Both the position numbers and the translations under genes were made by a program. From NCBI GenBank assembly GCA_949299755.1, contig CASGBA010000012.1, positions 1-64,000 of the forward strand: 64,000 nt of DNA, read 5' to 3'. Below the pieces are notes generated by a model, which did not search any database, was not told where the DNA came from, and worked only from the letters and a program-made list of their open reading frames with translations. This stretch comes from an uncultured Treponema sp. Lineage in GTDB: Bacteria; Spirochaetota; Spirochaetia; Treponematales; Treponemataceae. Shown here one piece after another: positions 21,791 through 25,886 of the stretch; position 1 is the first letter of the stretch, and the number at the start of each line of letters is the position of its first letter.

Positions 21791-22822
21791 ATGAAAAAAA
21801 TATTCAAATTTCAAACCGTATTTTCAATAATATTCTCTTTTTTCCTTTTTTCAGGCATTTCACGACTCAATGGAGAGGATTTCCGTGTAACGAAAGCCCA
21901 AACAATCCGTTTCAGAAGCGTTAATCCTGAATCTGAAACAATAAATTTAGGGTACAATGACGGGGTTGCCCTTGTTTTACCCGATGATTTGACCTTTATA
22001 AAGGCAGTTGAATTTGAAATAAAAACCCCCAGGGAAGTTCTTCAATTTCCCGGTGGAATGGCTTATGGTATATATACAAACCTTTCTTCCCTTCCGGACG
22101 GAGAAATATTCGACTTCAGTGCGGAACAACTTTCAATTGAAATTTTACCTTCAAAAGTTACCTTTGTTCTCCAGCTTCCATTGAGGGAAAATCACGGCTT
22201 AAAATCAGATCCCTATGCGCTTGTAATGGCTCCCATTCGTCCGGAAGACAGTGCCTGGCTTTTTTTCAGGCTGTTTCCGGTTATGAAAGGAATGCCGGAA
22301 GAAGTTGAAAATGCGGTTTTCCCGGTTAAAATCAAACCGATTTTAATTGACGAGGGCGGTTTTAAGCTGAGCGTCAAATACACGGATTCTGTCCAACCGG
22401 GTTCCGGAGAGCAGAATCCAGGGGTAATCACCCCCAATGTGAGGATAGACGAAATTCCCGTGCAAAATCCAGGTAAAATACAGCTTTTATCCCCAGGAAG
22501 CCATCATCTGGCGGTATCCGCAGAAAATTACCGAACAGAAGTACGGGTTTTTACAGTCGAGCAAGCAAAAATCACAGAGGTGACAGTGGAAATGAAAGAC
22601 ACTGCCCCGACAGTTGTGTTTGCAGGACCGGACAACGCGGAAATTTTATTGGACGGTGAAAAAATAGACAATCCCAGGGAAAGCAGAAAGATAAAACCAG
22701 GAAAACATCTGGTGGTGTTTTCAGTGGGGGGTTATAAACTTCAAAAACAATTCACAGCTGAAGAGGGACGGGATTATTCAGTTTCAATGACGGTGGATGC
22801 CGAAATAGTTGAATTGGAATAG
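21791..22822 (+). CDS. Secreted protein with PEGA-like beta repeats
   Basis: The 343-residue product has a signal peptide (MKKIFKF then hydrophobic to about 28, SRLNGEDF). The N-terminal 180 residues are a beta-rich domain I do not recognise. The C-terminal part has two PEGA-like units (PVQNPGKIQLLSPGSHHLAVSAENYRTE and PDNAEILLDGEKI followed by KIKPGKHLVVFSVGGYKLQKQF). Such units bind or stack on cell-wall structures. It lies 15 bases after the M23 gene, in the same probable operon. There is no Shine-Dalgarno before the ATG. Confidence 0.78.
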   Translation: MKKIFKFQTVFSIIFSFFLFSGISRLNGEDFRVTKAQTIRFRSVNPESETINLGYNDGVALVLPDDLTFIKAVEFEIKTPREVLQFPGGMAYGIYTNLSSLPDGEIFDFSAEQLSIEILPSKVTFVLQLPLRENHGLKSDPYALVMAPIRPEDSAWLFFRLFPVMKGMPEEVENAVFPVKIKPILIDEGGFKLSVKYTDSVQPGSGEQNPGVITPNVRIDEIPVQNPGKIQLLSPGSHHLAVSAENYRTEVRVFTVEQAKITEVTVEMKDTAPTVVFAGPDNAEILLDGEKIDNPRESRKIKPGKHLVVFSVGGYKLQKQFTAEEGRDYSVSMTVDAEIVELE

Positions 22823-22875
22823 GAATCGGGAGGTTTTAGACAACAAAACAACGTTTTCGACTTAAGAAAAATCTT

Positions 22876-22983
22876 CCGCCCTCCGATAAATAAGTATCGG
22901 GCGATCAGGTTCCCTCCCACCCACTGGTCGTCCGATAGCCTGATGGGCGGGCCGGTATATCTTGTACCGGCTCTTTTTTTTTC
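22876..22983 (+). ncRNA. Structured RNA element ending in a terminator
   Basis: CCGCCC (22876-22881) pairs with GGGCGG (22945-22950) and closes a three-way junction. One arm is CCGATA-AATAAG-TATCGG (22883-22900). The other is ATCAGG (22904-22909) with CCTGAT (22939-22944), around a pyrimidine-rich 29-base loop. A second CCGATA (22932-22937) could take the TATCGG instead, giving a mutually exclusive fold. A terminator follows: GCCGGTA (22951-22957) with TACCGGC (22965-22971), then a T-rich tail. It could be a 3'-UTR element of the upstream gene, an independent small RNA or a riboswitch-like device. I recognise no known family. Confidence 0.6.
22951..22983 (+). terminator. Strong terminator before the PBP1A gene
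   Basis: Seven-bp stem GCCGGTA/TACCGGC with a 7-base loop, followed by TCTTTTTTTTTC. It ends the transcript of the M23/PEGA-like operon and the structured RNA above. Confidence 0.92.
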
Positions 22984-23027: not shown

Positions 23028-25886
23028 ATGGCTAATAAGAAAAGAAAGCTGGCTACGGTTCTATGCATTCTGCTAATGATTATTGCAATAATGACGGGGG
23101 CAGCCCTCGGCATATCACTGGCAATGACAGCGAACCTAAAAAATACAGAAAATTTCAGTGGATTCAACCCGGATCTTCCGACCAGAATTCTTGATGTTCA
23201 CGGTGATCTTATAACGGAATTCGCAGCGGAAGAAAAACGGGAAATGATAACGCTGGACCAATTGCCCCGTCACATGATAAACGCCCTGTTAACCCGAGAG
23301 GACCAAATCTTTTATGAACACAAGGGCTTCAGCGTAAAAGCCATTGCCCGCGCTTTTTTAGGTGTACTTACAGGCCGATCCCTTGGCGGTGGAAGCACCA
23401 TAACACAGCAATTGGCTGGAACCCTATACTTGGACAGAAGCGAAAGGTCTATCACACGTAAAATAAAAGAGCTGTGGTGGGCGCTCCAACTTGAACGCAG
23501 GTATTCAAAAGATGAAATTCTTGAGCTTTATCTCAATAAAATGTATTTCGGGGGAGGAACTTACGGGGTCAACGCAGCCTCCAGATTTTATTTCGGCCAC
23601 CCCGCCACGGAAATAACCCCGGCCGAAGCGGCTATTCTGGTGGTGCAGCTTTCCAATCCGGCCTTTTACAACCCATTCAACCATCCCAACAGGGCTATGG
23701 ACAGGCAAAAAGAAGTATTGCGTCAAATGGTGTCTTTGGGTTATCTGGACCAGGAGACGGCGGATAAATCCTTTGAGGATTATTGGGCAACCTTTGACTA
23801 CACAAGAACCGATTCATCTGTGTGGTTGAATAGGGATGACAAAGCCCGGTGGTTCTCGGAATATGTCCGCAGGGAACTGGAACAAATGATGTACGGTACC
23901 ATGGACTTATATTCCGGTGGTTATACCGTCCACACAACCCTGGATTTAGCCCACCAGCAGGCTGCCGATGAGGTAATGACGGAATATATAAAAGAAGCGA
24001 ATAAACGTTTTCAGGAAACAAGCTCCTCCCGCTTTGCCAGAGGAGACCAATATGCGGAAATAACGGAACTGATTGCCCTGGTATTTGACTTTCCACAACT
24101 GGCAGTTTCCGCTGAACGAACACACGTAAAAACTTTGGCCCGTTACAGGAATGAAATAAACCCTATAACGGACATTATGAGCCTTTTGTGCGGGTTTGAT
24201 ACATTGAAAATGACGGCGAATATTTCCAACGCGGAATACCAGAAAGCCCAGGCAAAAAGTACCGTTGAGGGAGCCCTGATTACTTTGGAAAATGATTCCG
24301 GTTATATAACGGCTCTTGTGGGAGGAAGCCAATTCAACCAGTCAAACCAAATCATCAGGGCTACACAGGCCAAGGTTCAACCGGGAAGTTCCTTTAAACC
24401 CCTTATTTATTCCGCGGCAATAGATACGCGGAAATATACAGCGGGAACCATGATGAATGATACGCCTGTGGTCTTTTATAACGAGGACGGAGTTCCCTAC
24501 ACTCCCCTGAATTTCCGGGGCGAATGGAAAGGAACGGTTCTGTTATGGGAAGCTTTGGCAACCTCCATGAATGTCCCCACAGTCAGACTATTGGACGGGA
24601 TAGGATTTGACGCGGCCATAAACAGGGCGGCTGCTCTTTTGGGTTATAAAGACAAGGAAGAAATAGAAAGGGTTTTCCCCCGGGTTTATTCCTTGGGATT
24701 GGGAGTTATAAGCGTTTCTCCCCTTCAAATGGCAAAAGCGTTCGCAACCTTTGCAAATCAAGGAAAAGAAGTGACTCCCATTGCCATCCGCTCAGTGGAA
24801 GACAGGCACGGACGGTTGATAATAGACACTGAAAAGGAACTCAGGCTGGAACAAAAGCGTAAAGGTGCCGCCATACAGATAGTAAGTCCCCAGAATGCAT
24901 TCATTATGACCCAGCTTATGAGAAACACTTTCTCGGAAGGAACCCTTGGAAGTATATATTGGAGCGGGCTTCTTTCTTACAAGGATGCCAACGGAAAGAG
25001 ATATACAATACCGGCCGCAGGTAAAACCGGCACGACACAAAACTGGCGGGATGCATGGACTGTAGGATTTACCCCTTATTACACAACCGCTATCTGGTTT
25101 GGCTTTGATAAGCCTGGATACTCTCTGGGACTCAGATCAACAGGAGCAACTCTGGCCGGCCCTGCCTGGGGAAAATACATGGACCGGATCCACGAGGGGC
25201 TTCCTTACAGGGATTTTGTAAAACCGCAAACAGGTTTAATTGAGGCCACAGTCTGCCGTAAATCCGGTCTTTTAAGGACAGAAGAATGCAATGAAGGTTC
25301 CATAAAACTCTATTTCCTTGAAGGTACCCAACCAACCCAATATTGCGAGTACCACGCAAACAATGCGGTTCTAAAACGTACCGCCATTGACAGGCTTCAA
25401 AATGAATCTTATCTAACGGGAAGGAAACCTTTAACAATCAAGGAAGGTGAGCTTATCCTGGATCCCGGGATTTTCGATGATCCGGAACCCAGTAAACAGG
25501 CGCAGGCACGCTTGCGGAGGGCGGGAAGAACAAACCGTACTACAACCAGAACAACGGGAGGATTTGTGATACCCAGCCGGAACCAAACTTCCGTCAAGGA
25601 TAATACCAAAGACACGGATACGGATGCGGAAAACCAACAGGAAATCACCACGGAAGATTTACTCCATGACGAAAACCCGATCCCGGAGACAGAAAATATA
25701 AATGAAACCGAAGGCCAGGAACTCCAATCCCAGGTTGAAGGGGATGAAAACGAAAGGATTGACTTCGAGGAAGACTGGTTGGAAACAGATTTACAGGAAG
25801 AAAACGAAAATAGCATCACGGAGGAAGACAATCCGGAAGAAAATGAAGAACCGGAGAGTCTGCCCTTTAACCCCATGTTGGAATAA
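23028..25886 (+). CDS. Penicillin-binding protein 1A (bifunctional transglycosylase/transpeptidase)
   Basis: The 952-residue protein has a cytoplasmic start, one membrane anchor (about 8-34), a GT51 transglycosylase domain with catalytic Glu91 in TREDQIFYEHKG and GGGSTITQQLA, and a transpeptidase domain with SSFK (about 455), SMN and AGKTGTT (about 665). It polymerises and cross-links peptidoglycan in the periplasm. The last 150 residues are unusual: after about 800 they turn into a disordered tail very rich in Glu, Asp, Thr and Asn. Transcription is separate from the M23 operon. A small ParB-like gene follows after 32 bases. Confidence 0.96.
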   Translation: MANKKRKLATVLCILLMIIAIMTGAALGISLAMTANLKNTENFSGFNPDLPTRILDVHGDLITEFAAEEKREMITLDQLPRHMINALLTREDQIFYEHKGFSVKAIARAFLGVLTGRSLGGGSTITQQLAGTLYLDRSERSITRKIKELWWALQLERRYSKDEILELYLNKMYFGGGTYGVNAASRFYFGHPATEITPAEAAILVVQLSNPAFYNPFNHPNRAMDRQKEVLRQMVSLGYLDQETADKSFEDYWATFDYTRTDSSVWLNRDDKARWFSEYVRRELEQMMYGTMDLYSGGYTVHTTLDLAHQQAADEVMTEYIKEANKRFQETSSSRFARGDQYAEITELIALVFDFPQLAVSAERTHVKTLARYRNEINPITDIMSLLCGFDTLKMTANISNAEYQKAQAKSTVEGALITLENDSGYITALVGGSQFNQSNQIIRATQAKVQPGSSFKPLIYSAAIDTRKYTAGTMMNDTPVVFYNEDGVPYTPLNFRGEWKGTVLLWEALATSMNVPTVRLLDGIGFDAAINRAAALLGYKDKEEIERVFPRVYSLGLGVISVSPLQMAKAFATFANQGKEVTPIAIRSVEDRHGRLIIDTEKELRLEQKRKGAAIQIVSPQNAFIMTQLMRNTFSEGTLGSIYWSGLLSYKDANGKRYTIPAAGKTGTTQNWRDAWTVGFTPYYTTAIWFGFDKPGYSLGLRSTGATLAGPAWGKYMDRIHEGLPYRDFVKPQTGLIEATVCRKSGLLRTEECNEGSIKLYFLEGTQPTQYCEYHANNAVLKRTAIDRLQNESYLTGRKPLTIKEGELILDPGIFDDPEPSKQAQARLRRAGRTNRTTTRTTGGFVIPSRNQTSVKDNTKDTDTDAENQQEITTEDLLHDENPIPETENINETEGQELQSQVEGDENERIDFEEDWLETDLQEENENSITEEDNPEENEEPESLPFNPMLE

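Follow-up and report, generated by a model that had tools for sequence, protein, structure and literature searches.

We found that the window, a 64,000-nucleotide stretch of a Treponema contig, encodes a small RNA that is kept across flagellated spirochaetes and is previously undescribed, as judged from Rfam and from the open-access literature searched (subscription papers were not covered). Very likely, it is a sigma28-dependent sRNA that acts in trans, covering the fliF and ftsZ ribosome-binding sites and thereby repressing both genes, with its expression, its transcription start site and the repression being predictions from genome comparison. The locus comprises the following features:

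Positions 21791 to 22822, forward strand: upstream neighbour, a PEGA-domain protein gene (Pfam PF08308); context, outside the RNA.
Positions 22862 to 22869, forward strand: sigma28-type -35 element, TTAAGAAA, recognized by the recurrence of T[TAC]AA at fixed spacing.
Positions 22882 to 22889, forward strand: sigma28-type -10 element, TCCGATAA, overlapping the 5' arm (22883-22888) of a hairpin in the original prediction.
Positions 22894 to 22982, forward strand: small RNA gene of about 88 nt, predicted 5' end at about 22894-22896 (covariance model R1, match 1-88, 91.5 bits; wider model R2, 81.1 bits).
Positions 22895 to 22908, forward strand: 5' arm of the main 14-bp stem, supported by covariation.
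Positions 22909 to 22923, forward strand: C-rich apical loop, GTTCCCTCCCACCCA, the proposed antisense seed for the fliF and ftsZ ribosome-binding sites.
Positions 22924 to 22937, forward strand: 3' arm of the main stem, including the second CCGATA of the original prediction.
Positions 22938 to 22948, forward strand: small hairpin, GCCTGATGGGC, conserved in the family and lost in some distant families.
Positions 22949 to 22982, forward strand: intrinsic terminator, an 11-pair stem (22949-22973) plus U tract.
Positions 23028 to 25886, forward strand: downstream neighbour, a PBP1A gene (TIGR02074 PBP_1a_fam, 617 bits); context, outside the RNA.

Folding of the stretch 22876-22983 gave -52 kcal/mol (z = -5.67), and none of 200 dinucleotide shuffles was as stable. 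The minimum-energy fold is a 14-bp hairpin (TATCGGGCGATCAG / CTGGTCGTCCGATA) that closes a 15-nt loop and contains no three-way junction. Comparison with homologues identified the same hairpin (22895-22937), with its C-rich loop open, followed by the small hairpin and then the intrinsic terminator, as the conserved fold. In an alignment of 26 family members, 93.9% of cells were paired, a value that dropped below 47% when partner columns were shifted by one, and 16 pairs had changed on both sides (equalled in 0/500 shuffles). Cells changed on both sides numbered 88 in this fold versus 26 in shuffles (0/500). Within the main stem, 12 of the 14 pairs showed compensatory changes, which no shuffle reached (0/500), and the hairpin's covariation holds order-wide as well (46 sequences). 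The terminator stem covaries in the family alignment, while three pairs of the small hairpin are invariant across its 26 members; this hairpin is missing from members of families f6, f10 and f11. The apical loop is predicted to be accessible (unpaired probability 0.80-1.00), and its sequence is nearly fixed: CCCTCCC is invariant across the order, and CCCCTCCC is found in nearly all members. The loop of the window's genus (L001-L003) reads TTCCCTCCC (core CCCUCCC) and is one C shorter than elsewhere in the family; with this shorter loop the fliF match is weakened and the ftsZ match is kept.

Upstream of the RNA, the window reads TTAAG...CCGATAA, and homologues more generally read TNAAG...CCGATAA. 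Among 51 homologues, the best CGATAA match had at most one mismatch in 49 and lay 10-11 nt 5' of the predicted start of the RNA in 48, and T[TAC]AA occurred 21-23 nt 5' of CGATAA with counts of 23, 26 and 7 at these offsets, versus 0-6 at any other. The E. coli FliA consensus is TAAAGTTT-N11-GCCGATAA, and the spacing of the two elements agrees with it. Across 80 family genomes, the strict sigma28-type motif occurred well above a reversed-pattern control, and it lies 5' of flagellin genes in several genomes and, in one, of flgD (genes named by inspection); the exact strict pattern misses the window's own genome, where the promoter is a looser variant. The RNA therefore appears to be transcribed from a sigma28 (FliA)-type promoter, which would imply transcription by sigma28 in cells. 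The hairpin arm at 22883-22888 overlaps the -10 box and is mostly promoter DNA, so it should mostly be absent from the RNA. In nearly every homologue, the RNA starts with bases (TRTCGG) complementary to CCGATA of the -10 box. Sigma28-type promoters also lie just 5' of two other kinds of gene, each in several genera. One encodes a protein starting MKDLxYxxxxPKxDxHNHLNLxMxY (L044, L049, L053, L055, L056, L063, L089), adenosine-deaminase-like by eye and a possible member of the flagellar regulon; the other encodes a large secreted-looking protein (GS+DI...SWQ...DIS.KKKGKYN; L067, L078, L099, L105).

Relatives of the RNA were found by BLAST in most genomes of the same family, and a BLAST search of plasmids gave no match. 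Model R1 matched 139 of 145 family genomes, one of them of 1.1 Mb, and 105 of the 106 that are near-complete. The sole near-complete exception, G098 (f1, 93% complete), keeps a sigma28-type site before flagellin (L071), and its lack of a match is most likely an assembly gap. Order-wide, R1 matched 170 of 197 genomes. R2 extended the matches to further families of the class and to other classes of the phylum, although E-values of both models are rough and phylum-level matches with E above about 1e-4 may be due to chance; where distant R2 matches were inspected, the loop core and the upstream promoter were kept. A pattern combining promoter, stem and loop, searched in one genome per species, recovered at least 119 stretches. 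The titled matches listed were nearly all spirochaetes, including contigs of Treponema denticola and T. vincentii, and the roughly nine others listed fit the approximately 13 chance matches expected by our own arithmetic.

The RNA and sigma28 occur together. FliA scored above the curated cut-off in 190 of the 197 genomes of the order and, among 42 genomes sampled outside it, in 21/21 that carry the RNA and 0/21 that lack it. The RNA-lacking set consists of two clades, so that this co-absence reflects at most two evolutionary events and not 21 independent ones. By inference, f7 is Borrelia-like (genomes of about 0.9-1.8 Mb in several pieces) and f13 is probably flagella-less and Sphaerochaeta-like. 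Sigma28 has been described as absent from Borrelia, unlike the other spirochaetes named in the same report (PMC11607428).

Both fliF and ftsZ have unusual, G-rich ribosome-binding sites, and these are complementary to the loop core, UUCCCCUCCCA. We tested for targets in a single gene cluster and by scanning for a pattern in which the loop complement precedes a start codon (TGGGAGGGG-N2-12-ATG). Matches of the scan included fliF and ftsZ, each in three families, but it also gave many chance matches, above all in G276, and we therefore used orthologue-based tests instead. We located the FliF gene in 68 of 70 genomes and inspected the start regions, where start codons were partly assigned by a script that favours Shine-Dalgarno-like sites. 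Most RNA-bearing genomes have a GGGAGGGGAAC-type site at fliF, with GGGGGGGAC in f3 and a shifted GGTGGGAGG in a few f1 genomes. All six of the Borrelia-like f7 genomes, which lack both the RNA and FliA, have an ordinary AAGGAG site at fliF, and the ftsZ site was ordinary in one such genome. The median duplex energy at fliF was -21.8 kcal/mol (62 genomes) versus -10.3 kcal/mol at 472 other start sites (Mann-Whitney p ~1e-33), a conservative background since it includes a few artefacts (the antisense of the RNA itself and one residual fliF); in the six Borrelia-like genomes it was about -9. Within stretches of about 20 kb that hold cell-division and flagellar genes, taken from 20 genomes, only fliF (-21.6) and ftsZ (-22.8) stood out among the roughly 20 genes of the shared cluster. 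The ftsZ starts were checked by tblastn, and the sites were examined in 16 RNA-bearing genomes. Ribosome-binding-site strength was rejected as a full explanation by a 16S anti-Shine-Dalgarno control: 16S pairing was -11.8 for fliF, -12.2 for ftsZ and -9.7 for the background, whereas pairing with the sRNA core was -20.6, -21.1 and -9.1, respectively. Flagellin (flaB) leaders mostly had an ordinary GGAGG, with the extended match absent.

The window's own genome carries fliF at G000:C6:157039-158745 and ftsZ at approximately G000:C6:167967-169181, and GGGTGGGAGG before ftsZ is a 10-nt complement of CCUCCCACCC in its own loop. Own-genome pairing in the window's genus is good for ftsZ (-24.2) and weaker for fliF (-18.1), and some genomes pair weakly (G016, fliF -14.3 and ftsZ -16.2; G003, fliF -13.2). 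When loops were permuted among genomes, own-loop pairing was better for ftsZ (p = 1.5e-4), a strong signal that leans on two f5 genomes, and weakly better for fliF (p = 0.024), for which the test has little power because the loop is almost invariant. Such co-variation can be seen in G177, whose loop CCCAAATCACT is matched by the ftsZ site AGTGATTTGGG, and in G045, whose loop CCCAAACCGCT is matched by AGCGGTTTGGG. An accessible, conserved seed complementary to the Shine-Dalgarno region of its targets, together with seed-target co-variation, is what is expected of an sRNA that blocks ribosome-binding sites. In G448 (L250, L248), a GGGAGGGG start site is also present at fliI and at a murF-like gene, and fliI of G388 and G434 also pairs strongly with the loop; the target set may thus be larger in some lineages.

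The original prediction had read this DNA as a three-way junction with a competing helix, followed by a strong terminator, and as either a switch or a structured small RNA. The second of these readings agrees with our results: the terminator was confirmed, the RNA is structured, ends at its own terminator and is independent of PBP1A, and nothing in Rfam matches it at the gathering score, in line with the original failure to match it to a known riboswitch family. The complementarities that it named are also present (CCGCCC 22876-22881 with GGGCGG 22945-22950, CCGATA 22883-22888 with TATCGG 22895-22900, and ATCAGG 22904-22909 with CCTGAT 22939-22944), and that of CCGATA and TATCGG is widespread among homologues. 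As a cis switch, the junction and the competing helix would lie towards the 3' end of the PEGA-gene transcript, switch from one to the other on a signal and control termination before PBP1A. On the window sequence the junction alone (-23.9 kcal/mol) is energetically near the two-hairpin fold (-25.7 kcal/mol), so that energy alone is undecisive and the comparison of homologues decides. In 20 homologues, the pairing and covariation of the junction were reached by 232/500 and 193/500 shuffles; 52% of the cells of its outer stem are paired, and this stem is broken already in a close relative (G002). The 5' CCGATA is constant, in keeping with a -10 box, whereas its 3' counterpart varies with the stem. 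The second CCGATA (22932-22937) does pair as proposed, but the supposed competing helix is the base of the conserved 14-bp hairpin. Covariation across relatives, which had been suggested as a check, was indeed found, but in a different set of helices: since the long hairpin covaries and the junction does not, the RNA is real and conserved and has another fold. A sigma28-type promoter of its own at fixed spacing argues against its being part of the upstream PEGA-gene transcript and, together with its own terminator and the lack of conservation of the junction, makes a cis switch very improbable. The homologues did not show what a riboswitch or cis-acting leader would have, a pair of conserved alternative folds that control a neighbouring gene, and nothing suggests a ligand-binding riboswitch, given that the part that does not vary is a single-stranded loop able to base-pair.

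It is also conceivable, although unlikely, that the sigma28-dependent sRNA is a general anti-Shine-Dalgarno decoy acting on many mRNAs, of which fliF and ftsZ are just two. The loop resembles the 16S anti-Shine-Dalgarno sequence, so that numerous G-rich sites could pair with it, isolated matches exist elsewhere (the fliI and murF-like genes of G448), and the ar14 RNAs of Alphaproteobacteria are weakly similar in Rfam. This does not fit well with fliF and ftsZ alone standing out in the 20-gene cluster, nor with the use of [AT]GGAGG, which is common at other genes (35/162) and nearly always avoided by fliF and ftsZ (1/72). Extreme loop conservation occurs in protein-binding RNAs too, and the loop might be a protein-binding site, with the G-rich fliF and ftsZ sites binding another factor or serving translational strength. 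We give this little credence, because it predicts neither the complementarity, nor its absence where the RNA is absent, nor the co-variation of loop and ftsZ site.

For the sRNA that targets fliF and ftsZ, we propose that an RNA of about 88 nt is transcribed from a dedicated sigma28 (FliA) promoter up to a terminator of its own, and that its long hairpin would present the open, nearly invariant loop to the fliF and ftsZ ribosome-binding sites, where pairing would block translation initiation. Direct pairing in vivo is inferred from the complementarity, and repression as the sign of the effect from the position of the pairing at the ribosome-binding site. FliF forms the MS ring of the flagellum, which is built early in basal-body assembly, and FtsZ acts in cell division. 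In well-studied bacteria, sigma28 is active only late in flagellar assembly, and the RNA would thus feed back from the late to the early stage. Completion of a hook-basal body would hold back the formation of further basal bodies and division rings, a purpose suggested by general flagellar hierarchies. Somewhat less firmly, we favour the view that the RNA is ancient, was present early in flagellated spirochaetes and serves as a dedicated checkpoint in which completion of the hook-basal body, signalled via sigma28, represses FliF and FtsZ; its target sites are kept across many families and are ordinary where sigma28 was lost.

Trans-acting sRNAs are usually replaced quickly during evolution, and it would be unusual for one to persist together with its targets across families and orders of a phylum. 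Spirochaete flagella lie inside the cell envelope, so that their number is coupled mechanically to cell length and division, and repression of both fliF and ftsZ would, if true, tie flagellum building to cell division. The open-access literature searched contained no report of an RNA that connects flagellar assembly with FtsZ. The mechanism is testable, with two targets and exact base pairs, in the cultivable T. denticola and T. vincentii, and the known loss of sigma28 in Borrelia would gain a post-transcriptional angle.

C-rich anti-Shine-Dalgarno loops are also a feature of ar14 RNAs. The alphaproteobacterial ar14 family (Rfam RF02344), a hairpin RNA with a terminator, is the best Rfam resemblance; we rejected membership at 23.4 bits versus a gathering score of 58.8, and neither gathering nor permissive Rfam thresholds assigned the RNA to a family. 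A loop that mimics the anti-Shine-Dalgarno sequence and blocks ribosome-binding sites is likewise described for NfeR1 and other 'cuckoo'-type sRNAs, which differ in phylum, regulon and targets (PMC10746234). The E. coli sRNAs UhpU, MotR, FliX and FlgO also belong to the FliA regulon and tune flagella number and motility; they are UTR-derived, unlike the present RNA with its own promoter and anti-Shine-Dalgarno-like loop, and MotR and FliX pair inside coding sequences. The targets named in the abstract include lrhA and the S10 operon and not fliF or ftsZ (PMC10578931). Sigma28-dependent RNAs are known from Campylobacter as well, namely CjNC1/CjNC4 (PMC4626219) and CJnc170/FlmR (PMC11187230). 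CjNC1/CjNC4, predicted to act on the 5' UTRs of earlier (sigma54) flagellar genes and Hfq-independent in a reporter (PMC4626219), are the closest working analogue, in outline of function and with no homology claimed. The Campylobacter RNAs have been described in that genus only and have different targets, and the abstracts of the two reports name no cell-division target (PMC4626219, PMC11187230). Compared with the sRNAs of E. coli and Campylobacter, the present RNA is set apart as a free-standing gene with a predicted division target.
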